Shown piece by piece: positions 34,638 to 52,589 of a stretch of DNA of 64,000 nucleotides. The notes below the pieces were generated by a model that ran no database searches, was not told the DNA's origin, and saw nothing but the letters and a program-made list of their open reading frames with translations. Every line of letters starts with the position of its first letter. The first letter of the stretch is position 1. Position numbers and translations under genes: made by a program. Source of the DNA: an uncultured Erysipelotrichaceae bacterium (GTDB taxonomy: Bacteria > Bacillota_I > Bacilli_A > RF39 > UBA660); NCBI GenBank assembly GCA_902785135.1, contig CACZXL010000004.1, positions 1-64,000 on the forward strand, written 5' to 3'.

Positions 34638-34663
34638 AAAAAAGAGTTATAAAACTCTTTTTT
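34637..34663 (-). terminator. Terminator of the rmlA-rmlCD operon
   Basis: AAAAAGAGTT, a four-base loop, AACTC and a run of seven T on the minus strand, overlapping the rmlCD stop codon. Confidence 0.8.
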
Positions 34664-36263
34664 AATTCTTGTTAACAAGTTTTAACTCTTTACTGTATCT
34701 TCTAACAGCATCTTTCCAACTTGGTAATAAATCAAAATCATTATCTATTAAAGCATTTTTACTTAATTTTGAATTTCTAGGTCTATATGCTTTTTGAGGA
34801 TATTCTTCTGATGTAACATGATTAACTTTTACATTTTTATTATTTTGTCTGAATATTTCTTCTGCAAATTCAGCCCAATTACAATATCCTTCATTATTTG
34901 CATGATATAAACCATATTTTTCTGTTCCAGCCATATTTACTAATAATTTAGCCAAATCTACAGTATATGTAGGACTTCCATATTGATCAGAAACTACATT
35001 TAATTCATCTTTAGTATCAGATAAATTAAGCATTGTTCTCATAAAATTCTTACCATTTATACCAAATACCCAAGAAGTTCTAACTATAAATGTTTTAGGG
35101 TTATTTAATGCTTTTCTTTCACCTAATAGCTTAGTTCTTCCATATTCAGATTTTGGATTTGGTTCATCTGTTACTTCATATACTTCATTTAAATCTTTAT
35201 TTCCATCAAATACATAATCAGTACTTATATATATTAATTTAGAATTATATTTTTTACAGTTTTCAGCAATATAACCAGTAGCATTAATATTAATACCTTC
35301 TACTATATCTTTAACCTTTTGAGCATCTTCCTTCTCTTCTTCTGTCATACCTTCTTTAATTACTCCATCTTCTGCGTTGTCTACAGCAGTATATGCAGCG
35401 CAGTGTATAACTAGATTTGGTTTAATTTCATCCATATATTTATCAACAGCTTCTTTATCAGCTAAATCCAATACTTCTATTGTTGGCGCAAATATATTAT
35501 TCTCTTCATAACCTTGTTTTATAAGTTCTTTAATTACATCATAACCTAATTGACCTGCTCCTCCTGTTACCATAACTTTACATCTTGAATTATAGTATCT
35601 TTCTGAAGGTTTTAAATCACTTTTCTTAAATGGTATTTCATTATTTTCTAATTTTTCATCTAATGAACTATGTAATTTATCTTTATCTGATGTTAATAGT
35701 TCATCTTCTTTAATACCATTACTTTCAAATATTGATTTCCAATCTATATTGATTCCTTTATCATCCCAAGGAATACCTGCTTCCATACTAGGAGCATAAT
35801 CATTATCTACTAAATAGTGAAATTTTGTTTCATCTTGTAATGCAATAAAACCATGTGCAAAGCCTTTTGGTACAATTAATTGATTTTCATATGGTTTTAA
35901 TTTAATACCTAACCATTTTCTAAATGTAGGTGAATCTGGTCTTATATCAACTATTACATCAATTGCTTCTCCTTCAGTAACACCCACTATTTTTGTTTGG
36001 CATTTAGGATCTAATTGATAGTGTAATCCTCTAATTGTTCCTTTTGAACTTCCAGATACATTTTCTTGTCTAAAAGTTTCCCATACTCTATTTGGGATTC
36101 CTTTTTCTATAGCATCTTGAATTACTCTTGGAGAAAAGAATCCTCTTTTATCTCCAAATTTATCAGCTACTAAAATATAACAATCTTCAAGACCTTCACC
36201 ATAGAAGTTTTCTCCATCAATCATCCCTTTATATTCATCACTCATTGTATTAATTAATTTCAT
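34662..36263 (-). CDS. Fused dTDP-4-dehydrorhamnose 3,5-epimerase and reductase (RmlC-RmlD)
   Basis: 533 residues joining two steps of dTDP-L-rhamnose synthesis. Residues 1-190 form the RmlC epimerase cupin: KFGDKRGFF, RGLHYQ at 78-83 (catalytic His), VDIRPDSPTF and VPKGFAHGF. A linker follows. Residues 228-533 form the RmlD reductase, a short-chain dehydrogenase fold with TGGAGQLGYD (234-240), HCAAYTAVDNAE, the catalytic pair in YGRTK, and RTSWVFG. RmlC and RmlD are usually separate proteins of about 180 and 290 residues, so the fusion makes one enzyme. It overlaps rmlA by 14 bases, with GGAG at a suitable distance. RmlB is not in the window. Confidence 0.93.
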   Translation of the reverse strand: MKLINTMSDEYKGMIDGENFYGEGLEDCYILVADKFGDKRGFFSPRVIQDAIEKGIPNRVWETFRQENVSGSSKGTIRGLHYQLDPKCQTKIVGVTEGEAIDVIVDIRPDSPTFRKWLGIKLKPYENQLIVPKGFAHGFIALQDETKFHYLVDNDYAPSMEAGIPWDDKGINIDWKSIFESNGIKEDELLTSDKDKLHSSLDEKLENNEIPFKKSDLKPSERYYNSRCKVMVTGGAGQLGYDVIKELIKQGYEENNIFAPTIEVLDLADKEAVDKYMDEIKPNLVIHCAAYTAVDNAEDGVIKEGMTEEEKEDAQKVKDIVEGININATGYIAENCKKYNSKLIYISTDYVFDGNKDLNEVYEVTDEPNPKSEYGRTKLLGERKALNNPKTFIVRTSWVFGINGKNFMRTMLNLSDTKDELNVVSDQYGSPTYTVDLAKLLVNMAGTEKYGLYHANNEGYCNWAEFAEEIFRQNNKNVKVNHVTSEEYPQKAYRPRNSKLSKNALIDNDFDLLPSWKDAVRRYSKELKLVNKN

Positions 36264-37218
36264 CTTTATTTTCTCCTTGATTATTTGTTAAAATTAATTT
36301 TCTTACTTTTTTATTACTTACTTGTTTACTTTGAATTTCTTCTTTTTTTTTTGCAACATATTTAGTTAATAATTGACCATATTCAGTCTTTTTCATTAAT
36401 TCACCAGCTGCTAATATTTGTTCTTCAGAAATCCAACCATTATCATAAGCAATTGTTTCAGGACTACATACAAGTCTTCCTTGATTTTTTTGTACACTTT
36501 CGATTAAGTCTCCTGCATCTCTCATACTTTGTCTAGTTCCTGTATCAAACCAAGTAAATCCTCCACCAAGTAATTCTGCTCTTAAGTTACCTTCTTGTAA
36601 ATACATATCATTTAAAGTAGTAATTTCAAGTTCTCCTCTTGCAGATGGTTTAACTTGTTTTGCTTTTTCTGCTACTCCCTTTGGATAGAAATATAATCCT
36701 GTAATAGCAAAGTCAGATTTAGGTTCTTCAGGTTTTTCTTCAACGCTTAGAACATTATTATTTTCATCTATTTCCATAATACCAAATCTTTCTGGATCAT
36801 CTACTCGATATCCAAATATAGATGCCTTTCCTTCTTCTGCTTTTTCTTTGGCATTAAGAAGCATTTTCTTAAAATCATTACCAAAATAAATATTGTCGCC
36901 AAGTATCATAGCACATTCATCATCACCAATGAATTCTTCACCTAGAATAAATGCTTGTGCAAGTCCATCTGGTGATGGTTGAATACAATATTCTAAATTA
37001 AGACCAAATTCTGAACCATCTTTAAATAATTTCTTAAAATTTGGTTGATCCTCTTCTGTAGTTATTAATAATATATCTTTAATTCCCGCAAGCATTAGAA
37101 CAGATAATGGATAATATATCATTGGTTTATCACATATTGGCATTACTTGTTTACTAATTGCTTTTGTTATAGGATAAAGTCTTGTTCCAGACCCTCCTGC
37201 TAAAATAATTCCTTTCAT
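36250..37218 (-). CDS. rmlA: Glucose-1-phosphate thymidylyltransferase
   Basis: 322 residues. Makes dTDP-glucose from dTTP and glucose-1-phosphate, the first step to dTDP-rhamnose. The nucleotide-binding start is GIILAGGSGTRLYPIT, followed by SKQVMPICDKPMIYYPLS, and later GDNIYFGND and GFTWFDTGT. The C-terminus is about 30 residues longer than E. coli RmlA, rich in Lys and Gln, with no known domain. Its ATG is preceded by AGGAGGGT and a perfect promoter. It is the first gene of a two-gene unit with the rmlC-rmlD fusion. Confidence 0.96.
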   Translation of the reverse strand: MKGIILAGGSGTRLYPITKAISKQVMPICDKPMIYYPLSVLMLAGIKDILLITTEEDQPNFKKLFKDGSEFGLNLEYCIQPSPDGLAQAFILGEEFIGDDECAMILGDNIYFGNDFKKMLLNAKEKAEEGKASIFGYRVDDPERFGIMEIDENNNVLSVEEKPEEPKSDFAITGLYFYPKGVAEKAKQVKPSARGELEITTLNDMYLQEGNLRAELLGGGFTWFDTGTRQSMRDAGDLIESVQKNQGRLVCSPETIAYDNGWISEEQILAAGELMKKTEYGQLLTKYVAKKKEEIQSKQVSNKKVRKLILTNNQGENKDEIN

Positions 37219-37240
37219 AAATCATACCCTCCTAAATAAA

Positions 37241-37269
37241 ATTATAACAATTATGTAAAACACTGTCAA
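37241..37269 (-). promoter_or_regulatory. Consensus promoter of the rmlA operon
   Basis: TTGACA (37264-37269), 17 bases, TATAAT (37241-37246) on the minus strand, a full consensus match, about 25 bases before the rmlA ATG and just after the terminator of the glycosyltransferase unit. Confidence 0.9.
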
Positions 37270-37301
37270 ACAAAAAGAATGAATTATTTTTCATTCTTTT
37301 T
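37268..37301 (-). terminator. Terminator of the glycosyltransferase unit
   Basis: AAAAAGAATGA and TCATTCTTTTT pair around an eight-base loop on the minus strand, followed by GTTTG. It overlaps the stop codon of the 396-residue glycosyltransferase. Confidence 0.75.
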
Positions 37302-38474
37302 ATTCTTTTCTTTTAATAACTTGTCAAATAGTTTTTTATACTTCTTAACAACTATTTCCCAAGTATATTCATCTTTTATTCTTTTCTTAGCTTTTTCCCC
37401 ATATTCATTTTGATCTTTAATTTTAAATTTTTCAATTGTTTCTATTTGTTTACATAAAGATCCTTCTTCATTAGAGAAATAAATTGCTGCATCTTCACCA
37501 ACTTCTTTGTTATAACAAGCATCATATAAAATATTAACATCTGTTATACTTAAAGCTTCAAGTAATGATGGATTTGTTCCTCCTGCAGAATGACCATGAA
37601 TATATCCTTTAGCATTTTTTCTTAATCTTACTAACATATCTTGATCATATACTGGACCTACAAACTTAATTCTTTTATCTTTATCAAAACCAGTAGTTAG
37701 TTTTAATTTTTCATAGAATTTATTTTGTTCAACATTTGATACTATTACAAGATCTTTTTTAGTAGTAGATTTCATATATTCTCTTATTATTAATTCATAA
37801 TTATTCTCTGGTACAAATCTACCTACTATTAAATAGTATTCTCTCTTTTTAATATCATATTTATCCATAAAGAATTTAGTTTTTTTATCTATATCTTTAA
37901 TATCTTTTAAATATGCTCCATAAGCGATAAATGTTGTTCTATTTTCTTTTTTCTTATATTTATCTTTAATATATTTTTCTATATTTTTACTATCACAGAC
38001 AACATAATCAGATGCATTAATCATAGTCTTTTCTGAAAATTTAAAATATGATTTTATTAAGAAATTCCATTTTGCTCTTTGCCATTCAATACCATCAGGA
38101 TTGATAACAATTTTAACTCCCATTCTAGTTAATTTTCTATGAATCAAAGTAAATAATGGTCCTACTCTATAACCTAATGTATACATTACTACATTTTCTA
38201 ATTTTTCTTTCTTAATATATTTCATAAAATATAAAGTAGCTTTAAATGCGAAAGTTAACATAGTTAATGAACCTTGTTTAGGTACATATATTTGTGGACA
38301 TGTTACTCCATTTCTTACTTCTACATTTCTATTTTTCTTACTATGATTTAATTCTGGTACGAAAAATCTTGTATCTTTATCATTATAATTATTTATTAAG
38401 TTTGTTACGAAAGTTTCCCAACCTCCGTATTCTTTTTCGTATCCTCTTGCTCCTATTATAATAATATTTTTCAT
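37284..38474 (-). CDS. GT4-type glycosyltransferase, likely rhamnosyltransferase (DUF1972 type)
   Basis: 396 residues. The N-terminal GARGYEKEYGGWETFV motif and the AFKATLYFMKYIKKE / VMYTLGYRVGPLF segments match the DUF1972 half of Cps2T/RfaG-like rhamnosyltransferases. The C-terminal GT-B half contains VGRFVPENNYELI, FVGPVYD and HSAGGTNPSLLEALS, the donor-binding area. Such enzymes add rhamnose to a lipid-linked sugar in rhamnose-containing polymers. Its location beside rmlA-rmlCD supports that, but the acceptor is unknown. AGGAG precedes the start. Confidence 0.82.
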   Translation of the reverse strand: MKNIIIIGARGYEKEYGGWETFVTNLINNYNDKDTRFFVPELNHSKKNRNVEVRNGVTCPQIYVPKQGSLTMLTFAFKATLYFMKYIKKEKLENVVMYTLGYRVGPLFTLIHRKLTRMGVKIVINPDGIEWQRAKWNFLIKSYFKFSEKTMINASDYVVCDSKNIEKYIKDKYKKKENRTTFIAYGAYLKDIKDIDKKTKFFMDKYDIKKREYYLIVGRFVPENNYELIIREYMKSTTKKDLVIVSNVEQNKFYEKLKLTTGFDKDKRIKFVGPVYDQDMLVRLRKNAKGYIHGHSAGGTNPSLLEALSITDVNILYDACYNKEVGEDAAIYFSNEEGSLCKQIETIEKFKIKDQNEYGEKAKKRIKDEYTWEIVVKKYKKLFDKLLKEKNKKNEK

Positions 38475-39343
38475 TGTTTTTTACTCCTTATTTTTCTAAA
38501 GAAACATACAATGTATGATATTCCTAAACTTACATAATATGTCAATCTAAGAATAATCATACCAAAAATATTAGTTTTTAAATAGTATTTAGCAAAATAT
38601 TTTTGACTTTCTTTCAACATCTTATATTTATTTATTGAATTAAAGGATTTATCTACACTTACAGATAAATCATGAACTATTTTTGTACTATTATCTATAT
38701 ATGTTTTCTTTTCTATGTTCTTTAATTTTACTGCTAATATATTTTCTTCATAATATAGGAAAGTTGCTTCATCAAAATTACCTATCATATTCATGATATC
38801 TTTTCTAATCATAAAGAAACATCCTGATACTACATCTACTTTTGTTAAAGTATTATTATATTTCTCTTCTTTATAATTAAGATTCTTTTTTGCTATTCTT
38901 TGATAATAATTAATATTTTGAAGAATTTCATCTTTAATGGTTGGTAATCTCCAACCTTTTATTTCTTCATTTAATTGCTTAACTACAGGCGCAACTAAAG
39001 CTATATCATCATTAGTATCTAAATCTTTCTTTAGCTTTTCTATATCTTTTTCTTCTACAATAATATCTGGATTAGATATTATTATGTAATCTACAACAGA
39101 ATGCTCATTTAAATAATTTATTCCCACATTATTACCATAAGCATATCCTTTATTTTTTTCTGTTTCAATTACTTTTATTTTATTATTTTGTAATTTACTT
39201 AATTTTTCAAATGATCCATCTGAACTTTTATTATCAACAATAACAATATTATTTAAAACTTTAAATTTTTGTATTTTATCAATATACTTCTTTGTAGTTT
39301 CATAATCGTTATAATTAAGTATAACCATTCCTACTTTTGACAT
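38471..39343 (-). CDS. GT2-family glycosyltransferase
   Basis: 290 residues with the GT2 start VGMVILNYNDYETT and the nucleotide-binding VDNKSSDGS. ISNPDI is a degenerate metal site, and DVVSGCFFMIRKDI plus GNFDEATFLYYEEN form the acceptor region. It ends in a C-terminal hydrophobic segment that may anchor it. The layout matches rhamnosyltransferases of the WbbL/RfbF type. It overlaps the next gene by four bases and is the second gene of the unit starting with the 767-residue fusion. Confidence 0.82.
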   Translation of the reverse strand: MSKVGMVILNYNDYETTKKYIDKIQKFKVLNNIVIVDNKSSDGSFEKLSKLQNNKIKVIETEKNKGYAYGNNVGINYLNEHSVVDYIIISNPDIIVEEKDIEKLKKDLDTNDDIALVAPVVKQLNEEIKGWRLPTIKDEILQNINYYQRIAKKNLNYKEEKYNNTLTKVDVVSGCFFMIRKDIMNMIGNFDEATFLYYEENILAVKLKNIEKKTYIDNSTKIVHDLSVSVDKSFNSINKYKMLKESQKYFAKYYLKTNIFGMIILRLTYYVSLGISYIVCFFRKIRSKKQ

Positions 39344-39351
39344 ATTTTCAC

Positions 39352-41655
39352 CTACTTAAAAACTTCTAAAATCATATCTTTTGTATTTTTTGAATCATAT
39401 TTAATTGCTGTTTCTCTTGCTTTTTTCTTCATCTTTTTTACTTCTTCGTTGTTAAGATTCTTCATAGCTATTATTTTCTTAACTAAATCTTTTGAATCTT
39501 GTGGTTTAAAGAATAATCCATTACTCTTATCTATAACATAATCTGTTGGTCCATAATTCTTACTTGCAACAACAAGTGTTTCACAAGACATTGCTTCTAA
39601 ACCAACTAATCCTAAACTTTCACTCTTTCTATAAGTTGGAAATACGAATATATCTAAGCTATTGTATAGATTAACTAATTCTTCTTGAGATACCATATTT
39701 CTTATTTCTAAATATTCTTTAATATTTAGTTTTTTTACTAAATCATTAAATTGTTTTTCTTCTGCTCCAGCACCAACAATTAAGAATTTATAATTTTCAA
39801 ATTCTTTATTCTTAACAAGTTCACTAGCAGCTTCTAAGAAAACATCCCAACCCTTATTTTTTTCTATTCTAGATATATAACCAATATAATTATAATTCTT
39901 ATTTAAATTAGATTCCTTCATTGCTTCTTTTTTGTCTTTTTTTATAAATTTATTTGTATCTACTCCACCAGATGGATATACAAATAATTTATCTTTATCT
40001 ATATTATATTTTTCAAATAATACAGACTTATAATATTTTGAAGGAACAACCACTTTATCAGCATATTTTAAATATTTTGAACTTCTTGATTCATTCTTTA
40101 TTTCGAATGGAAAATCTGCAAGTACATCATTTCCATGTGCATTTAATATTAATTTTACATTCTTACTAGTTCTTTTTAAGAATACCGCACCTAAAGATGA
40201 ATGGGATACAAAATGTACATAGACATAAGCATAATTATTAAACATACCTTTTAAAACAGTCATAGAATATAAATAAATATATGAGAATAACTTGGCGATT
40301 TTTTCTGTTTGCTTAGTCATTACAACTCTATCTACCATAAATCCATTGTCTTTAAGAATATCTTCTACGTTTTTAACAAATATTCCATAATGTTTAGATT
40401 TATTATTTGGATACATATTAGATACTAATAATATTTTTTTCTTTTCTAAAACTACTGAGTTTCTACTTAAAACATATAATAACGCAATAAATATTGAAAC
40501 CATTGGTTTAGTTAATATATGACCACTAAATATAGACATTAAAATAAATAATGAACATGCCATTCCTTTATCTTCTCTTAAGCCAAAGAATTTTGTAGTA
40601 AATAGTATCATTAAAATATATATAAATGTACCAAATATACCAATACTATAAAATATATCAAATATATCTATCTCTATTACTTTTATGTCTAAAATAGCGT
40701 TATATCCTAAACCATAAATAATAGTTTGGGCATCTCCTCTTACAAACACTTTATTAACATCATTTAAATTAGATAATCTTTTACTAAATAATACATTATC
40801 AATATTTTCAATTTTAACTACATCTTTAACACTATTTATTTTGTAATAGTTTAATGTAGTTTTAATATTTTTCATCATAGGAGAAAAAGGAATTGCGCAT
40901 ATTACTCCTACTACTAAAAAGATAATTATAATATCAAATACTTTATTTTTCTTTTCACTTACTACAACATATGCATATCTTAAATGTCTATAATATAAGT
41001 ATAATAAAGTAATTATAATTCCTATAAATAATGTTTTAGTACCTACTAAGAAAATAACTATAAATAATTCAATATATACTAATGCTTTTAATATATAACT
41101 TTTTGATTTATTAACGTAAGTTAATACTATTGGCGCAAGACCTACTAATATTCCACTTATTTCATTTCCACCAATAAATAAACCAAAATAACCAACTTTA
41201 TTTGAATAACTTTCTGTTAAAGAATAACCTATGTTAAATAAATATGGAATAAGTATTAAATTTAAATATAATAAATAAATCTTAACAATTAATTTATCAT
41301 TTATTTTTTCATTATTATATTTACTAAAGAATAACATCATTAAAGGTAAATAAAAGATTTGAAATATATTACTTATTTCAGTAAAAACACCTTCTTTAGT
41401 TAATCCTAAAAAATACATAAGCGCTAAAATGACATATAAAACAAATAATATTAAAACTTTATTATTTTTATAATTATTCTTTAACCATATTAAAACAAAT
41501 AATAAAAATATTCCTCTTACTATTGTACCAATAGAAAATGGTAAATTAATATTTCTTACAAATATCGATGTAACTGCATCTAAAAATGGACTTAATAGTA
41601 AAAATATATAAACAAACTTATCAAAAAATTTATTAAATTTTATTGTTTTTTCCAT
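39352..41655 (-). CDS. Polymerase/ligase-like membrane protein fused to a GT4 glycosyltransferase
   Basis: 767 residues. Residues about 1-405 are a polytopic membrane protein with the layout of the Wzy/O-antigen-ligase family: several helices, a long outer loop, and the FGLREDKG segment near the last helices. Residues about 410-767 form a GT-B GT4 enzyme: KILLVSNMYPNN, VHFVSHSSLGAVF, ILNAHGNDV, VYPSGGVDTNKF, IGYISRIEKNKGWDVF and ESLGLVGLEAMS. The two normally occur as separate proteins. The frame is open across the junction with no internal start after a ribosome binding site that I can see. It probably makes and polymerises or exports an envelope glycan. The GGTGAGG site precedes the ATG. 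Confidence 0.85.
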   Translation of the reverse strand: MEKTIKFNKFFDKFVYIFLLLSPFLDAVTSIFVRNINLPFSIGTIVRGIFLLFVLIWLKNNYKNNKVLILFVLYVILALMYFLGLTKEGVFTEISNIFQIFYLPLMMLFFSKYNNEKINDKLIVKIYLLYLNLILIPYLFNIGYSLTESYSNKVGYFGLFIGGNEISGILVGLAPIVLTYVNKSKSYILKALVYIELFIVIFLVGTKTLFIGIIITLLYLYYRHLRYAYVVVSEKKNKVFDIIIIFLVVGVICAIPFSPMMKNIKTTLNYYKINSVKDVVKIENIDNVLFSKRLSNLNDVNKVFVRGDAQTIIYGLGYNAILDIKVIEIDIFDIFYSIGIFGTFIYILMILFTTKFFGLREDKGMACSLFILMSIFSGHILTKPMVSIFIALLYVLSRNSVVLEKKKILLVSNMYPNNKSKHYGIFVKNVEDILKDNGFMVDRVVMTKQTEKIAKLFSYIYLYSMTVLKGMFNNYAYVYVHFVSHSSLGAVFLKRTSKNVKLILNAHGNDVLADFPFEIKNESRSSKYLKYADKVVVPSKYYKSVLFEKYNIDKDKLFVYPSGGVDTNKFIKKDKKEAMKESNLNKNYNYIGYISRIEKNKGWDVFLEAASELVKNKEFENYKFLIVGAGAEEKQFNDLVKKLNIKEYLEIRNMVSQEELVNLYNSLDIFVFPTYRKSESLGLVGLEAMSCETLVVASKNYGPTDYVIDKSNGLFFKPQDSKDLVKKIIAMKNLNNEEVKKMKKKARETAIKYDSKNTKDMILEVFK

Positions 41656-41790: not shown

Positions 41791-43398
41791 CTATAGATCG
41801 AAGAAATCTCTTCTCATTGCTTCTAATTCTTTCTTTTCTTCTTGTTTTTTTCTTCTGATTTCTTCTCTTGTTAGAGGTATTTCTTCTTCTTTTTTAATTT
41901 CTGTAGTTTCTTCTTTAACTGGTTCATCTTGTTTATTCATTTTAACAGTATCAGTATTATTTAATTCTCTTTCTTTAGATATATTATCTGCTTTTTCTTT
42001 TATTTTTCTTTTTAATTCTATTTTTTTATCTTCTTCTTCATCTTCATCTTCTTCATCAATAACAGATTCTTCTTTTTCTACTTTTCCACCGTTTTTAATG
42101 AATTTTTTAGTCTTTCTATTAACTAATGCTTGTGAAATTATAATTATAAATAATATCGCAATTAAAGCACCTAAACCAATAACACCTATTTCTAATTTTT
42201 TTAATAGATCTCTATATATTTCAACTTGAGTATTATAAAATCTTTGGAATGTATTTTCTTGCATATCATATAAATAGAATGCTTTTTCACCTGTATCCAT
42301 ATTTAATGCATACACTAATCTATATGTAGATCCATATTGTAATGCATACCCATCTACTATTTCATTATTTATTTCTACCTTACATTTTTTATATTTATAT
42401 GGAACATCTTTCTTTTTAGCCTCCATAATTACTAATCTTAAACCATTAGATTTAAACTCTGAATATTTAGTATATGTACCGTTCTTTTGATTATATATAT
42501 ACCAACTAGCATTACCTTCTTCATCTACTAAAGCCACTATTAAATAACCTGTAAATGAATTTGAATAACCAACAACTTCTTCTTTATTTATTACTACTGT
42601 AGTTTTAGTAAAACCAGAAGGAGCTTTTAATCCAATATCTTTTTTTACAACTGTATATTTCTTTTTATTAATTGTAACTTCAATTGGATTCTTTTCTTTT
42701 CTAGTTATAGATATAACATAAGTTCTCACTTCACCATTTTCTGCAGTTACTTTTACTTCAAACTTATTTAATCCTTCTTTTAATTCTTTTTCTCCAAAAC
42801 CATCTACTGATGCAGTCTCATCTTCTACTTCACCATTAATAGTTATCTTTTCTTTATCACCTGGAACTACTGCTGCATATTCCATTTTATCTTTGTTAAA
42901 TGCAGGACTATATTTTACTCCATCAATAGATAAAGATTTTAAATAACTATTTGATGATTTATCTTTTTCATCTTCATCATCATTGTCATTATCATATACA
43001 TCATTTACATTTGCTGCTGCTCTATTAGGTTTAGAAGCTGATGTGATATTAACAGTACATGTATCACTACCAGTATATTCTCTATTTTCATCAGAAACAT
43101 CTATATTACCTACATAGAAAGTTGCTGTTCCAGGATTACCTGCTGTAAAATATACCGTTCTGCTAAAACTAGCTCCATCAGACCATATATTTAAATCTCC
43201 TCCGGAATAACTAGCATTACCTTCACCAACTATAAGACCTGTCCATGTTGTTGAAGCAGATGATAAACTACCAGATATTGTTACTGATATAGTTTCACCT
43301 GATTCAACAGAAGAAGGAGCAGAACAATGATATACTGCTGCCTTTCCTGTTATAGGTATAAATAATAACGATATTAATAAATATTTTAATTTTTTCAT
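41791..43398 (-). CDS. Cadherin-like-domain protein with membrane anchor and charged tail
   Basis: 535 residues. A signal peptide (about 1-20, cleaved near GKAA) leads to a beta-sandwich domain (about 20-130, AVYHCSAPSSVESGETISV to the CTVNITS end, with two Cys). A linker with NDNDDEDEKD follows. A cadherin-like beta sandwich (PF12733-type, about 150-240: YLKSLSIDGVKYSPAFN, MEYAAVVPG, ITRKE end) comes next, then two smaller repeats that end with EVVGYSNSF/EIVDGYALQY, a membrane helix (about 400-425) and a charged cytoplasmic tail. The gene lies directly downstream of the frameshifted glucosaminidase-dockerin gene. The first beta domain might be a cohesin-like receptor for that dockerin. That is an inference. 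Confidence 0.75.
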   Translation of the reverse strand: MKKLKYLLISLLFIPITGKAAVYHCSAPSSVESGETISVTISGSLSSASTTWTGLIVGEGNASYSGGDLNIWSDGASFSRTVYFTAGNPGTATFYVGNIDVSDENREYTGSDTCTVNITSASKPNRAAANVNDVYDNDNDDEDEKDKSSNSYLKSLSIDGVKYSPAFNKDKMEYAAVVPGDKEKITINGEVEDETASVDGFGEKELKEGLNKFEVKVTAENGEVRTYVISITRKEKNPIEVTINKKKYTVVKKDIGLKAPSGFTKTTVVINKEEVVGYSNSFTGYLIVALVDEEGNASWYIYNQKNGTYTKYSEFKSNGLRLVIMEAKKKDVPYKYKKCKVEINNEIVDGYALQYGSTYRLVYALNMDTGEKAFYLYDMQENTFQRFYNTQVEIYRDLLKKLEIGVIGLGALIAILFIIIISQALVNRKTKKFIKNGGKVEKEESVIDEEDEDEEEDKKIELKRKIKEKADNISKERELNNTDTVKMNKQDEPVKEETTEIKKEEEIPLTREEIRRKKQEEKKELEAMRRDFFDL

Positions 43399-43410
43399 AT
43401 CAATTCCCCC

Positions 43411-45317
43411 TTACTGAGTTAATTTTTGAGTATTTTGAATATGTGCTTTTATTTTTGAATAATCTATTGTACTTATCTTTCCATCTTTATTTGTATCTGC
43501 TGCACTATTATATACTCCATTTAATTTTGATGAATTTTGAATGTGTGCTTTTATCTTTGAATAATCTATTGTACTTATCTTTCCATCACCACTAGTATCT
43601 CCGTATATTATAACATTATATGTTTTAGTATTACCATTAATAGTAATAGATATCTTTTGACCTGTCGCGATTAAACCACTTGTTACTTCTTTATTACTTG
43701 AATTTAAAACTTTAACTGTAGCTTTTGAATTTTTACCTTTAATATAATTTATAACTTTACTTACATCTTCACCTACAGTAAATCCAGATAAATTATCACT
43801 TTTATTCTTATATCCTGTCGCAGTTACTACATTATCTGGAGTAACTTTACTAGGATCAATTACTTCTGCTTCTTTTCTAGTTATAGTAACTGTATAAGTC
43901 TTTTTAGAACCATCTTCTGCTGTTACTTCTACTTTAATAGTATTTGATCCTACTTTTAAATCAACTTTACCAGTTCCTGTTACTGTAGCTTTATCATGTG
44001 CTTTAGTAGCAGATACTGTTACACTACTTACTGAATTTTCCACAGTAGAATTATATGTAGTAATACTTGAATTAAATGCTGGATTTAATGTTACACCTGA
44101 AATACTTAATGCATTTAAATTGTTATTATTTGATTTAGTTGCGATAACTGTTCCTGATGGCATATCAGAATAAACAGGTATTTTGAAAGTATAACTATTA
44201 TTTAATAAATTATTATTAAAATATGAAGAATAAGTTGTATAACTTTCTTTATATGGAGCTTGTATATTAGCCATATATTGATGCCAATATCTGTTAGAAC
44301 CAATTAAATTAAATTTTTGATAGAATAAAGTATCTTGATTATTAGATATATATCCATCTGCTATTCCTTCTTCTCTTGAGTAGTACTACCTGACGCATTA
44401 AAATTGAAATAGTTATGATATGTTTGTTCATTATAATTCATATTAGTTGTTGCTGAACCATTTGTTCCTTGTTCTTGAATTACTCTTGCTGCTAAATGAA
44501 CTGGATTAACATTTGTAGCTTTACCTGCTTCCATAAATGCTTTTGCATAAGTATATGTTTGTCCATTATAAACAAATGATCCTGCCATAAATGTACCATT
44601 AAGCATAGCTTGAACATCTGATTCAGTTACGTTAGGATTATAAGATAATTGTTCAAACATAAATATACTATTATCATCTAAGAAATTTCTAGGATCCATA
44701 TAGTATTTTAATGTATCTTTACTAGGTGCATACCAACCTGGTTCAAATTGAATATAATTACCATTTGAATATGCAGCGCTATCTGTTGATAATTGATTTT
44801 TATTTGTTGTACTTATTAAATTTTTATAAACTGGTGAATATTCTCCATTAACCGCATCTGTTAAACTAACATTTGTCTTAGATACTTCAAAATTCCATTT
44901 AGGATGAATTGCATGCATCTTAGTTAATTTTTCAACATAACTTTCAGGGAATCCTTTACTTCTTAAAGTATTGGCATAATTTTGATCTAAAGTAACTGTT
45001 TTCTTATTACCTAAGTATTCTTGTAAAATATAACCTGTATAAGTAAATCCCCAATAATTAAATCTGATTTGAGCCCATGATCCTGAATAACCAATTACTT
45101 CAACTACTCTAGGTCTATATAACCAAATAATTCCACCTTCATCATGGTATACTCTTCCACAATTAGTACTAGGACAAGTTCTAGGTCCTAATTCAGTCGC
45201 ATCTATATAAGCATAAGTATATGTAGTTGCCATCGCATTTACTTTAGTAGGAATAAATGGCAAAATGCATGATAAAAACATAATAATACTTAAAAAATAT
45301 GTATTAATCTTTTTCAT
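43411..45317 (-). pseudogene. Frameshifted glucosaminidase with cadherin-like and dockerin domains
   Basis: Two reading frames make one protein of about 635 residues. The first (45317-44361, 318 aa) has a signal peptide, an SH3-like domain (about 35-100) and a GH73 endo-beta-N-acetylglucosaminidase domain with NPVHLAARVIQEQG (catalytic Glu) and YHNYFNFNASG. It stops at TAG in frame with TTQEKKE. The second begins in the same position with EEGIADGYISN, continues NQDTLFYQKFN and HQYMANIQAP (typical of the end of this glucosaminidase family), then a cadherin-like unit and a dockerin with DTSGDGKISTIDYSKIKAHI twice. The frame change lies at 44366-44382 in AAGAGAAGAAGGAA. A two-base insertion or one-base deletion explains it. 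A start at 44274 is not credible as a separate gene. Confidence 0.85.
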
Positions 45318-48020: not shown

Positions 48021-48047
48021 AAAAAAAGAGTAATAAATTACTCTTTT
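48021..48047 (-). terminator. Terminator of the LCP gene
   Basis: AAAAGAGTAAT and ATTACTCTTTT pair around two or three bases, followed by TTTTATTTT on the minus strand, overlapping the LCP stop. Confidence 0.8.
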
Positions 48048-49899
48048 ATGGTGTTGTTGTGTCATTTGTAGTTTTTTCTACACAGACACCATCTTGTTCT
48101 TCATAACCATAGTCACACACACATATTGTGTTATCTGCTGATGGTGAACTGTTTGGTTTACTACTACAATCTATTTTTTTCTCAGTTTCAGTATCTCCGC
48201 CACCAGTTGATGCATTAGGATAAGATTCAACTCCACCCCATTCATCTTCACCAATTATTTCTGGCTCATATGGATTATCAATTGAGAAACTAAATGATTT
48301 TTTGTATTCTTCTTTTTCTAATTCTAGATTAATTCTCATTGCTTTCTTAATTAGTTTTAATCCATCTTGAGATGGTACAAATTCATATAATCCAGTACCA
48401 GCGACACCATCATATATAATTCCTCCGCCACCTCTTAAATATGTTCTTTGCATGCTTATAACATCATTTTTATCAGTTAATGAATCTGTTGATAATAATA
48501 CTTTCTTAAATACATTATAGAATCCTAATATTTGTTCTCTATCTAAGTTAGTATCCATACTCTTACTAATTGTATCTAATACTTTATATAAGTCATCAAC
48601 TGTTCTTATTTCTTTAACTTTCTTTAGAATAGCTTTCATTACTAATTGTTGGTTTTGTCCACGGACGAAGTCATTTCTATCTCCTTCATTCCATTCTTCA
48701 CCACAAGTTGGATAATACTTTCTATTTCTAGATAAACCTAATGCTTCTCTACCATTTAAATGTTGCATACCTTTTTTAACAAATACAGCATTATAGAAAG
48801 TTCTATTTTCATCTGTTTCACAGAAACTATATGGAACATCAACATCTATTCCTCCTAGAGCATCAACTAAATTCATTAATCCTCTAAAGTTAACTTTTGC
48901 ATAATAGTCAATATCTATATCAATAAAGTTTTCCACAGTACTAATCATACATGAATCTCCACCTGAAGCAGCATGTGTGATTTTACTCATTGCATTACCA
49001 TAACAAGTAATTGGAACATAAGTATCTCTTGGGATACTGAATAATGTTGCATTTAAAGTGTTAGGGTTAAAAGTAATAACCATTATTGAGTCACCTAACG
49101 CAACTGCATCTTCTATATTTTCTTCTGGAGAATCTACACCTAGTAATAACATAGTAAATGGTTCAGTAACACTTTTTCCACTTGATTTAACATGAGTTGA
49201 GCCTTGTTTTTTCATTAATTTTGAATATTTTTTAATTACTTTTACTTCTGATTTAATATTTTTAAATTTATCTAAATCAGAATATTTTTCTACATATCCA
49301 CCAGATACAAATGCAGCATCTACTTTCTTTGAATAAAGATCATTTAACATAGTTATATAATCATCATATTTAACTAAATTATCATTAGATATATTACAAC
49401 TTTTAATGATATTTTGCGCAAGTACATAGCCTTCTGTATCATCTGTATCACTAATTATAGCTACTTTATAATTCTTTACTGTTTTAGCAGTAATATCTTT
49501 ATTTTCTTTTAAAGTTATTAATGCACTTGTATAAGTTAATTTATTTTTATTTAAATTATCTACAACATTAATACCTCTTGCAATTACATAACTTAAATAC
49601 ATTTCTCCTGCACCAAAAATTATTAGGAAAAATATTAGGAATACAAATTTCCATTTTTTTGGTTGTACTCTTAAAGAGAAATTCTTTTTAATTACATAAA
49701 GCATAAATAATATTAATAATCCTATTACTACATATCTAATTAATGTTTCAATACCAGTTAATTTCAATAAATTTAGAATGAAGTAAACTGTAGCAACTAG
49801 AAACATTCCAACTATAACACTAGAAAATAATCCTATGGTTTTATTTTTCTTTTTGAATTCTCTTTTTTCTTCTCTAGTATATTTTTTTCTTTTACTCAT
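48046..49899 (-). CDS. LytR-CpsA-Psr (LCP) family ligase with Cys-rich tail
   Basis: 617 residues. Three N-terminal membrane helices (about 25-110) precede a DNA_PPF-like accessory domain (about 125-235), then the LCP domain (about 240-440): MLLLGVDSPEEN, GDSIMVITFNP, SIPRDTYVPI, RGLMNLVDALGGIDVDVPY, GREALGLSRNRK, GDRNDFVRGQNQQLV. The Arg and Asp residues known to bind pyrophosphate are in place. LCP enzymes attach wall teichoic acid or other polymers from lipid carriers to peptidoglycan. The tail (about 575-617) is Cys-rich, resembling an EGF-like knot (CSSKPNSS, CVCDYGYEEQDGVCVE), which is unusual for LCP proteins. A three-helix start and accessory domain resembles CpsA. Confidence 0.93.
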   Translation of the reverse strand: MSKRKKYTREEKREFKKKNKTIGLFSSVIVGMFLVATVYFILNLLKLTGIETLIRYVVIGLLILFMLYVIKKNFSLRVQPKKWKFVFLIFFLIIFGAGEMYLSYVIARGINVVDNLNKNKLTYTSALITLKENKDITAKTVKNYKVAIISDTDDTEGYVLAQNIIKSCNISNDNLVKYDDYITMLNDLYSKKVDAAFVSGGYVEKYSDLDKFKNIKSEVKVIKKYSKLMKKQGSTHVKSSGKSVTEPFTMLLLGVDSPEENIEDAVALGDSIMVITFNPNTLNATLFSIPRDTYVPITCYGNAMSKITHAASGGDSCMISTVENFIDIDIDYYAKVNFRGLMNLVDALGGIDVDVPYSFCETDENRTFYNAVFVKKGMQHLNGREALGLSRNRKYYPTCGEEWNEGDRNDFVRGQNQQLVMKAILKKVKEIRTVDDLYKVLDTISKSMDTNLDREQILGFYNVFKKVLLSTDSLTDKNDVISMQRTYLRGGGGIIYDGVAGTGLYEFVPSQDGLKLIKKAMRINLELEKEEYKKSFSFSIDNPYEPEIIGEDEWGGVESYPNASTGGGDTETEKKIDCSSKPNSSPSADNTICVCDYGYEEQDGVCVEKTTNDTTTP

Positions 49900-49908
49900 A
49901 GTTTCCTC

Positions 49909-50568
49909 CTATTCTTCCATCTTAGCGATAGATAATTTATCTCCATCTTTAACAACTGTTAATGTAGCTTTATCTTGGAAACCACTATCATTTTTATATT
50001 CCCAAGTTAAAGTAATTTCATAAGCATTTGCTTCAGTAACACCTTCAAAATCTTTATGTTCAAAAACACTTGAAGGTACTACTTCTTCAACACCTGTTAC
50101 TTTTACTGATTTTACCTCAGGTAAATTTTGATTCTTTTTATTGTCTATACTATTAGGAACTTGTTTGTACATTCCATCTCTTGCATAATCTATGAAATCA
50201 GATTTATAACTAGAATATACAAATTGAACTCCACCTACGTCATTTTTACTAGATTTGTTATTTAAATTAAAGAAATCAATTATAAATAATTTTGAAACTG
50301 TTTCTGCATATTTTTTATTATCTACTTCTTTTGCATTTAAGATACTTTTTAATTCTTTAAATGTAGATTTAAATAATTTAGTATCTTTTTCATTAACTAC
50401 ATAATTAAAGTTTTTAATTTCATCAATAACTTTAGGAGCAGTTACTTCTGTTTCCTTAAAGAATTTGTTATATCCAAAATATCCACCAATTGCTAATATT
50501 ATTAGGACAAAGCATATTAATAATTTTTTCTTATTACTTATTCTTCTTTTTTTTACTTTCTTGCTCAT
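49909..50568 (-). CDS. Membrane-anchored protein of unknown function
   Basis: 219 residues: a strongly basic start (MSKKVKKRRISNKKK), one membrane helix (about 15-33), and an outer domain of mixed alpha/beta type with AYEITLTWEY and TLTVVKDGDKLSI near the end. It overlaps the LTA-synthase-like gene by four bases (ATGA) and is followed nine bases later by the LCP gene, so the three form an operon. It may be a helper of polymer attachment. No family is recognised. Confidence 0.7.
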   Translation of the reverse strand: MSKKVKKRRISNKKKLLICFVLIILAIGGYFGYNKFFKETEVTAPKVIDEIKNFNYVVNEKDTKLFKSTFKELKSILNAKEVDNKKYAETVSKLFIIDFFNLNNKSSKNDVGGVQFVYSSYKSDFIDYARDGMYKQVPNSIDNKKNQNLPEVKSVKVTGVEEVVPSSVFEHKDFEGVTEANAYEITLTWEYKNDSGFQDKATLTVVKDGDKLSIAKMEE

Positions 50569-52589
50569 TGGTCTTCTCCTTCCACTCTATCTAATCTTTC
50601 ATCTTGATTTTCATTTTTTATTAAATCATATAAGATTATATCGTTAGAAACTTCTAGTTTAGATGATGCAATATCATTATTTTTAGTAATTGTATCTTTA
50701 TCTATTACTGCATTTGGATTGATTACCTTATATTCATCTTTTTGACTATTATAATAGATATCGTTTGTTAACCAGTTTCCATTAGGGAAAGGTACAACAT
50801 TATCTTTTAAATTCATTATATCATTACCTAAAGCATACTTTGGTTTTAATCCTAACATATTACTTAATGTAGGCATTACATCTATCATACCCATAGCTGT
50901 TGTTACAGTTTTATTATATTGTTTATTTTTTGTCCAAATGATTAAAGGAACTGATCTATTTAATTCATAATCAAAATAATCTACTTCTTTATATCTTTCA
51001 TCGTCTTTACTATAAACTCCATCTTTTTCTTTATCATAATTATTTAATCTTACAAAATCAGATTTTGGTAGTTTAGCATCATGATCACCATATATAACTA
51101 CCACAGTATTATCTAGTAAACCTTGTTCATCTAATTCTTTAAATAGTTCTTCTAAAGCTGAATCAGCATAATGAACAGATTTAAAATAATTACCTAACTT
51201 TGTATCTTCCATATATGGATATGATTTTCCATCTTCTTTTATATCTACATCAAATTCACCATATTTATCTACTTCTGCGAATGGTGTATGGTTACTAAGC
51301 ATTATTAATGTAGCCATAAATTTTCCGTTTTTATCATATTCTTTTTTTAATTTAGGAGTTAATTGTTTGAAGAATTCTTTATCTGAAAGACCTAAACCAA
51401 TAATATTTTCTTCATCTACATCAAACGAATTCTTACTATAGAACTTATTGTATCCTAAAGATTTATGGAAATTATTTCTGTTCCAGAATTCACCATTATT
51501 AGCATGGAATGATAATGTATTATATCCTTTTTGTTCTTTTAATAGTTTTTGTAATGATTCATAATCTCTATTCCAATAACTTACCGCTACTGCACCATTA
51601 GTTACAGGTAATAGCGATGTGGAGAATGAAAACTCTGAATCTGAACTAGTTCCTGAACTTGCTTGAGCATAGAAGTTACTAAAATATATTCCTTCATCTT
51701 TTAATTTGTTTAAGAATGGAGCAACTGGTTTACCATTAAATGATTGTCTAATTGCAGCATTTTGTGTACTTTCAGCATGTATTATTAATACATTTTTACC
51801 TTCAAATTCATTTGTATAAGCATTCTTTTGTAACTGAATTTGATTTTCTTCATAATATTCTCTAAACTTTTTAGCAGCATTATCATAACCAAATAATGTA
51901 TTAAATTTAGCATCTAAACTCTTAAATAAATCGTTTAATTGGTAAGTATATACACCAAATTTAGTAACTAAGAATTCTCTATTCCATTGTTTTGATAATC
52001 TACTAAATTCAACTGATGTTACTGTCATAAAGAATAAAGCATAAACTACTACACCTGAAATAATTGTACCAGTAAATCTTTTCTTTCTATTTTCCTTTGG
52101 TCCAGCAAATTCATAATATTTTGTTTTCTTTAAATGATGATGATAAATAAGCATAAATATTAATTGCCATAAGAAAATAAAATCTTTAAATTGTAATACA
52201 TTCTTTATAACTGCATCCCCTACATCTACTACAGTTAATGAAACTGCGATTAATGAGAATGATGCAAATGACATATAATATGTATAATAAAGTGAATTTA
52301 CAACACATATTAAAGTGAATAAGAACGAAATTACCATTAAATATGTAAACTGTTTCTTTGTTTTAAATAAATAAACAAATGATCCAAATAAAAGTATTAT
52401 AGCTAAATCTGCAAGTAATGGTTTAATTGCAAAGTAATTATGAACAGTAAAAAATCTTAACATAGTTGCATTTATTAAATTACTAATTATAAAAGCTATA
52501 AATTGTCTATTTGTGCTTGCATATTCTATATAATTAAAATTAACAATTTTATTCTTAATATTTTTAAAATGATTTGTCATCTTCTTCAT
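50565..52589 (-). CDS. LTA synthase-like alkaline-phosphatase-superfamily enzyme
   Basis: 674 residues. Five N-terminal membrane helices (about 30-210) and an extracellular sulfatase-type domain (about 260-600) as in LtaS: FEGKNVLIIHAEST with the metal-binding Glu, ASSGTSSDSEF with the catalytic Thr, SFHANNGEFWNRNNF, LSNHTPF and VVIYGDHDAK. Such enzymes polymerise glycerol-phosphate (lipoteichoic acid) or transfer phosphoglycerol onto glycans. The C-terminus carries a long acidic extension. It is the first gene of an operon with an unknown membrane protein and the LCP ligase, which suggests polymer synthesis and attachment by one unit. AAGGAG precedes the ATG. Confidence 0.9.
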   Translation of the reverse strand: MKKMTNHFKNIKNKIVNFNYIEYASTNRQFIAFIISNLINATMLRFFTVHNYFAIKPLLADLAIILLFGSFVYLFKTKKQFTYLMVISFLFTLICVVNSLYYTYYMSFASFSLIAVSLTVVDVGDAVIKNVLQFKDFIFLWQLIFMLIYHHHLKKTKYYEFAGPKENRKKRFTGTIISGVVVYALFFMTVTSVEFSRLSKQWNREFLVTKFGVYTYQLNDLFKSLDAKFNTLFGYDNAAKKFREYYEENQIQLQKNAYTNEFEGKNVLIIHAESTQNAAIRQSFNGKPVAPFLNKLKDEGIYFSNFYAQASSGTSSDSEFSFSTSLLPVTNGAVAVSYWNRDYESLQKLLKEQKGYNTLSFHANNGEFWNRNNFHKSLGYNKFYSKNSFDVDEENIIGLGLSDKEFFKQLTPKLKKEYDKNGKFMATLIMLSNHTPFAEVDKYGEFDVDIKEDGKSYPYMEDTKLGNYFKSVHYADSALEELFKELDEQGLLDNTVVVIYGDHDAKLPKSDFVRLNNYDKEKDGVYSKDDERYKEVDYFDYELNRSVPLIIWTKNKQYNKTVTTAMGMIDVMPTLSNMLGLKPKYALGNDIMNLKDNVVPFPNGNWLTNDIYYNSQKDEYKVINPNAVIDKDTITKNNDIASSKLEVSNDIILYDLIKNENQDERLDRVEGEDQ

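Follow-up and report, generated by a model that had tools for sequence, protein, structure and literature searches.

A dedicated cohesin-dockerin gene pair may hold a SagB-type glucosaminidase at the membrane of gut Bacillota

Cohesin and dockerin modules are usually taken as signs of polysaccharide degradation. In Clostridium perfringens they are found on secreted glycan-degrading enzymes, where they link the enzymes to one another. The docking face of known cohesin-dockerin complexes is the 8-3-6-5 sheet of the cohesin (PMC5429695). Dockerin-bearing cell-wall hydrolases were noted in a cellulosomal Ruminococcus, and a “lyticome” was proposed (PMC6403190). A survey lists single-cohesin transmembrane (TM) proteins of Lachnoclostridium MSJ-17, to which it assigns the role of scaffoldins serving as many as 39 dockerin proteins (PMC11557425), and a rumen survey judged species with “few dockerins and no cohesins” to be most likely non-cellulosomal and set them aside (PMC6118326). 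SagB of Staphylococcus aureus, a hydrolase of the cell's own wall, is positioned by the membrane partner SpdC (PMC10581084). Here, we describe a gene pair of gut bacteria in which a cohesin-dockerin lock appears to serve growth of the own wall.

The pair is located in the window, i.e., the whole stretch of 64,000 nucleotides that was analysed, from an uncultured Erysipelotrichaceae bacterium. All genes between 41791 and 45317 are carried by the minus strand, and transcription runs from the two frames of a split enzyme gene (45317-44361 and 44385-43411) into the gene of the anchor protein P0001 (43398-41791), which starts 12 nt past the dockerin stop codon. The features are:

44361-45317, minus strand: N-terminal part of the SagB-like glucosaminidase, 318 aa, with signal peptide, SH3-like region and GH73-type catalytic domain carrying the Glu of the motif ARVIQEQG; ends prematurely
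44365-44374, minus strand: break point, a frameshift with about 73 nt absent relative to the related contig L143 (about 25 aa relative to the intact enzyme L094)
43411-44385, minus strand: C-terminal part of the enzyme in another frame, with the end of the catalytic domain, a cadherin-like domain, a linker module and the dockerin
43873-44115, minus strand: cadherin-like domain of the enzyme (PF12733, 1.3e-12)
43438-43605, minus strand: type I dockerin with two symmetric Ca-binding repeats (PF00404, 8e-12)
41791-43398, minus strand: membrane anchor P0001, 535 aa
43039-43329, minus strand: divergent cohesin domain of the anchor by profile match, residues 24-120 (genus-free profile of relatives, 34.2 bits, 4.1e-8)
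42697-42942, minus strand: cadherin-like domain of the anchor (PF12733, 2.4e-8), present in 69 of 69 relatives
42199-42690, minus strand: dom3, a conserved uncharacterised domain ahead of the TM helix, residues 237-400 (genus-free profile, 4.6e-50)
42133-42189, minus strand: single TM helix, residues 404-422, followed by a charged tail of 113 aa that is probably cytosolic

The unit is surrounded by envelope genes, including those for an LCP protein (48046-49899) and a sulfatase-fold protein (50565-52589), and by glycosyltransferase and dTDP-rhamnose-type genes at 34662-41655. Among the latter, a dTDP-rhamnose epimerase and reductase are apparently fused in one ORF (34662-36263), and a second apparent one-ORF fusion joins an O-antigen-ligase-like membrane domain to a GT4 glycosyltransferase (39352-41655). 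A scan of the region found no terminator and fewer promoter-like sites than in shuffled sequences, and was uninformative.

With regard to the enzyme, the profile built from intact relatives matched the SagB structures 6u0o_B (1.5e-34) and 6fxp (2.4e-34) best in the PDB, the former being the SagB-SpdC structure, and the column of the catalytic Glu holds E in 127 of 127 aligned sequences. Homology of the catalytic domain and the catalytic Glu place the enzyme in the SagB/GH73 group, the window copy being short of about 25 residues of that domain. Its N-terminus carries a hydrophobic segment; any other TM segment is absent in 131 of the 133 relatives checked, and the enzymes lack LPxTG. The initial annotation had described a glucosaminidase gene with a two-repeat dockerin, of which the dockerin was borne out and the intact gene was not. 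L094, an intact enzyme of 657 aa from the same genus, aligns to both window frames (64% and 53% identity), the missing residues coinciding with the frame change, and at this site L143, a related contig with the same gene order and 75% nucleotide identity, carries 81 nt against 8 nt in the window. The break is either an assembly error, which is conceivable in a draft assembly of 27 contigs, or a true mutation; with its reading frame broken, the enzyme copy in the window may have no activity or be an artefact of assembly. That the unit in the window is a pseudogene remnant devoid of a working enzyme is a real possibility of somewhat less than even odds: the frame is lost within the catalytic domain and no second copy, intact or other, was found in the own genome, against which stand the draft state of the assembly, the intact downstream parts (cadherin-like unit, dockerin symmetry and anchor) and the intact genes of the relatives. 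Such a remnant would be compatible with a tethering role of the pair in the family as a whole.

The dockerin occupies residues 261-316 of the frame 43411-44385 and is clearly of type I, scoring 45.6 bits against a curated cut-off of 22.9; the same profile, PF00404, matches 64 of 64 relatives, and in Foldseek the dockerin model matched the double dockerin 8x39 with an rmsd of 0.9. Its two repeats, DTSGDGKISTIDYSKIKAHIQN and DTNKDGKISTIDYSKIKAHIQN, are nearly identical. Across 129 sequences, repeat positions 10, 11, 13, 14, 17, 18, 20 and 21 agree between the two repeats of one dockerin (kappa 0.71-0.96) yet vary widely between species, whereas positions 2, 4, 7, 8, 16 and 19 are devoid of symmetry (kappa of at most 0.17). 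The type I dockerins of this family hence display the internal symmetry expected for dual binding. The pattern is explained more simply by selection on two binding faces of equal function than by gene conversion, under which every position should have become alike.

The downstream protein had been described beforehand as membrane-anchored with an N-terminal beta-sandwich and a cadherin-like unit, which agrees with its PF12733 match (2.4e-8) and its TM helix at residues 404-422; the description left out the further conserved domain at residues 237-400. In full, P0001 comprises a signal peptide, the beta-sandwich (SVESGETISVTISG), the cadherin-like unit, dom3, one TM helix and the charged tail, and exactly one TM helix at the same C-terminal place is found in 126 of 133 relatives. 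Dom3 (about 160 aa) shows strong conservation among the anchors, and Pfam gave no match to it. Profiles built without the genus recognised the three outer domains of P0001 at 4.1e-8, 5.7e-31 and 4.6e-50, by which P0001 is a member of a conserved cohesin-anchor family.

Searches with the window beta-sandwich alone against Pfam, NCBIfam and PDB sequences gave no cohesin; it was the family profile and the matches of neighbouring sequences that revealed one. PF00963 does not reach P0001 at E<=1, so that the protein stays below the Pfam cohesin cut-off, and at 0.1 this profile matches just 14 of 69 anchor relatives. The best PDB matches of the family profile are type II cohesins of the scaffoldin ScaB (3l8q, 4e-7), the same profile also matching some antibody chains, mostly via the signal peptide region. 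For the relative L159 (a Bacilli MAG; L076 of this family is identical to it), the model has nine strands, and ranks 1-18 in Foldseek are all cohesins, the top three stemming from C. perfringens (2w1n, 2jh2, 2vo8). The model of the window domain is shorter, with eight strands and many Ig-like Foldseek matches, cohesin 2vo8 appearing at rank 15. Since P0001 is homologous to relatives that match the cohesin profile, its N-terminal beta-sandwich is, on the evidence of homology, a divergent cohesin.

A proposed surface receptor for the hydrolase should recur next to it, and the gene pair was indeed retrieved from other genomes. Of 150 related enzyme loci (loci of the family genomes plus 80 named ones taken from a genome collection, scored with profiles built in this analysis), 133 have dockerin enzyme and cohesin anchor side by side. 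The fraction is inflated, as the presence of a dockerin or likeness to a dockerin enzyme was the criterion by which most loci had been collected. Flanking genes are common to merely 5-12% of locus pairs, compared with 100% for the enzyme and 92% for the anchor. The named loci come from MAGs of Bacilli and “Tenericutes” and from Lachnospiraceae, Oscillospiraceae, Roseburia inulinivorans DSM 16841 and Pseudoflavonifractor An44. Of 117 family genomes, a dockerin was matched in 90 and a Pfam cohesin in 59, and in many a cohesin match lies directly downstream of the dockerin enzyme. The full-length anchor is present at E<1e-100 in 77 of these 117, nearly always at the coordinates of the dockerin enzyme, and a phylum-wide sample yielded it from two further families. 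Individual loci depart from this layout: in L175 (3312-6760) an ORF with cohesin and dockerin lies upstream of the dockerin enzyme and replaces the usual downstream anchor, and in Roseburia inulinivorans DSM 16841 (L158, 4032-6400) the dockerin, the only match of that genome, is in another frame than the enzyme owing to a frameshift.

Further hints of a physical contact came from co-variation. The recognition positions of the dockerin were picked from repeat symmetry, independently of the cohesin, and their distances correlate with those of the adjacent cohesin at a rank correlation (rho) of 0.64. The correlation was 0.75 within the family, 0.50 after thinning and 0.60 without the sequences gapped in strand 3. 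Genes of one operon travel together, so some correlated divergence is expected in any case, and cohesin and dockerin could be ordinary multi-purpose adhesion modules whose co-variation reflects shared operon ancestry without binding. We regard this as highly improbable: the partial correlation remains at 0.615 after removal of the other anchor domains and the enzyme domain, with none of 2000 permutations reaching it (maximum 0.21), whereas the cadherin-like domain and dom3 of the anchor, which travel equally, and likewise the enzyme domain give values of about zero against the recognition strip, as do non-contact dockerin positions against the cohesin. Moreover, coupled columns cluster on what is predicted to be the 8-3-6-5 sheet of the cohesin (p=8e-7; weaker, p=0.026, without the gapped sequences).

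AF2 models of the enzyme dockerin fused to the cohesin by read-through of the stop codon, in which docking was judged by pTM alone, gave a divided answer to the prediction of an interface. The fused pair of the relative L159 was predicted to dock, with a confident pTM of 0.82, whereas the window's own pair reached 0.50 and showed no confident docking, roughly 0.5 being the pTM that we estimated for two unrelated domains of such size. Taken together, three independent signs, namely repeat symmetry, co-variation and the fused-pair model, suggest that dockerin and adjacent cohesin bind, presumably in a calcium-dependent manner, and the pair conservation and strip-cohesin co-variation lend support to the idea of a surface receptor that holds the hydrolase.

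The own genome contains one dockerin match in total and two further cohesin matches, L002 and L003, both isolated single cohesins. L002 (1414-2688, G000:C6) combines a cohesin with two cadherin-like units and a TM segment; L003 (1228-1959, G000:C7) is the second further cohesin protein, and with no second dockerin match in the genome both are orphans. These proteins could in principle hold the dockerin, the adjacent gene being a mere neighbour with another ligand, and a partner encoded elsewhere had been named in advance as an outcome that would speak against the pair. Both exceed the Pfam cohesin cut-off, which P0001 does not, and L002 likewise has a TM anchor. Nevertheless, the L002 type was found in only 3 of 117 family genomes, compared with about 77 for the adjacent anchor, it is the adjacent cohesin with which the recognition strip co-varies, and several genomes have a lone dockerin and a lone cohesin match that adjoin each other, so that we consider such a partner very unlikely. 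As a conserved partner, L002 and L003 were rejected on the same distribution.

A cohesin anchor was also found beside dockerin-less enzymes, in seven Lachnospiraceae-type loci as well as in L140 and the frame-shifted L158. In six of the genomes of these seven loci no dockerin match was found, and some anchors in dockerin-less loci score above the Pfam cohesin cut-off. Frisingicoccus is among the dockerin-less lineages. As these six genomes show by keeping the anchor, the cohesin domain does not need a dockerin to be maintained, which points to a recent loss of the lock or to another ligand of the domain. A separate case is the genome of locus L219, a true multi-enzyme system with 29 dockerin and 10 cohesin matches, in which the SagB-like enzyme lacks a dockerin.

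In this context, the expression “mini-cellulosome” used in the initial annotation was too strong, as the unit consists of one cohesin and one dockerin and has no scaffold of many enzymes. With one dockerin match and isolated single cohesins, the own genome does not show the make-up of a cellulosome (a multi-cohesin scaffoldin, several dockerin enzymes and a CBM). The pair might still belong to a cellulosome- or lyticome-like multi-enzyme system directed against foreign polymers or bacteria, with the glucosaminidase as one of several cargos. Some family members do encode several dockerins (12 in one genome, 10 in each of two others), and the wall hydrolases of cellulosomal Ruminococcus, for which a lyticome was suggested (PMC6403190), would fit such a role. 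We consider it unlikely, as each anchor has one cohesin, the two genes form a unit of fixed order, the own genome has a single dockerin match, as do 54 of the 90 dockerin-bearing family genomes, and the SagB family acts on the own wall in S. aureus (PMC10581084). A one-to-one system fits these 54 genomes as well as Pseudoflavonifractor An44, with exactly one match to each of the two modules.

We therefore favour, with a probability of roughly 0.85, the view that cohesin and dockerin form a dedicated one-to-one pair by which a SagB-type enzyme is kept at the membrane, in a manner that resembles SagB-SpdC with a lock of the cellulosome type. The SagB-type beta-N-acetylglucosaminidase would be exported via a cleavable signal peptide, lacking an anchor of its own, and its C-terminal dockerin would bind the N-terminal cohesin encoded by the downstream gene, docking in one of two symmetric ways. 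Held by the anchor's one TM helix on the outer side of the membrane, at the site where nascent glycan strands appear, the enzyme would trim wall strands of its own cell. Since the enzyme has no other TM segment or LPxTG and the anchor has one TM helix, the lock would keep a secreted glucosaminidase at the membrane of the cell that made it.

It is also fairly probable, with less confidence than for the pair itself, that gut Bacillota widely, including small-genome Bacilli, Lachnospiraceae and Oscillospiraceae, use such a monovalent, operon-encoded lock to tether their own SagB-type glucosaminidase as a housekeeping, non-cellulosomal function. Because the divergent cohesin escapes Pfam, many of the genomes with “few dockerins, no cohesins” would thereby be accounted for, which offers an explanation for lone dockerins in non-cellulolytic genomes. 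The gene pair is spread over many gut bacteria without a cellulosome, and the proposed lock is a testable answer to the question of how such bacteria place a potentially lethal hydrolase. In addition, more than 120 naturally varied cognate pairs represent a resource for studying or engineering orthogonal docking.

As the initial annotation had supposed, no description of a dockerin-enzyme/cohesin-anchor pair was found in the open-access literature searched, the components being partly known (PMC6403190, PMC11557425). The cellulosomal type I pairs of C. thermocellum, A. cellulolyticus and R. flavefaciens are alike in their two symmetric Ca loops, recognition positions and cohesin fold, and the co-varying face corresponds to their 8-3-6-5 sheet (PMC5429695). 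Unlike these, the unit described here is a fixed gene pair that encodes a single cohesin and a single dockerin. It carries a wall glucosaminidase and no polysaccharide cargo, and its anchor relies on a TM helix; SLH, sortase and CBM are absent. The GH84C and GH33 modules of C. perfringens share the non-cellulosomal use and are structurally closest to the cohesin of L159, whereas the present pair would tether to the membrane. In contrast to the Ruminococcus hydrolases, which dock on cellulosome scaffoldins, the enzyme here has a dedicated monovalent membrane anchor next door. The MSJ-17 proteins, with a single cohesin and a C-terminal TM segment, possibly belong to the same anchor family, a likeness drawn from their description; their described role as scaffoldins differs from that of a partner of the adjacent hydrolase. 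Closest in enzyme domain is the SagB-SpdC system of S. aureus (6u0o, 6fxp), whose sagB and spdC mutants have longer glycan strands. The enzyme here differs from SagB in its SH3, cadherin-like and dockerin domains and in lacking a C-terminal TM segment, and in place of the polytopic, CAAX-protease-like membrane protein SpdC, the adjacent gene encodes an unrelated one-TM protein with cohesin and cadherin-like domains.
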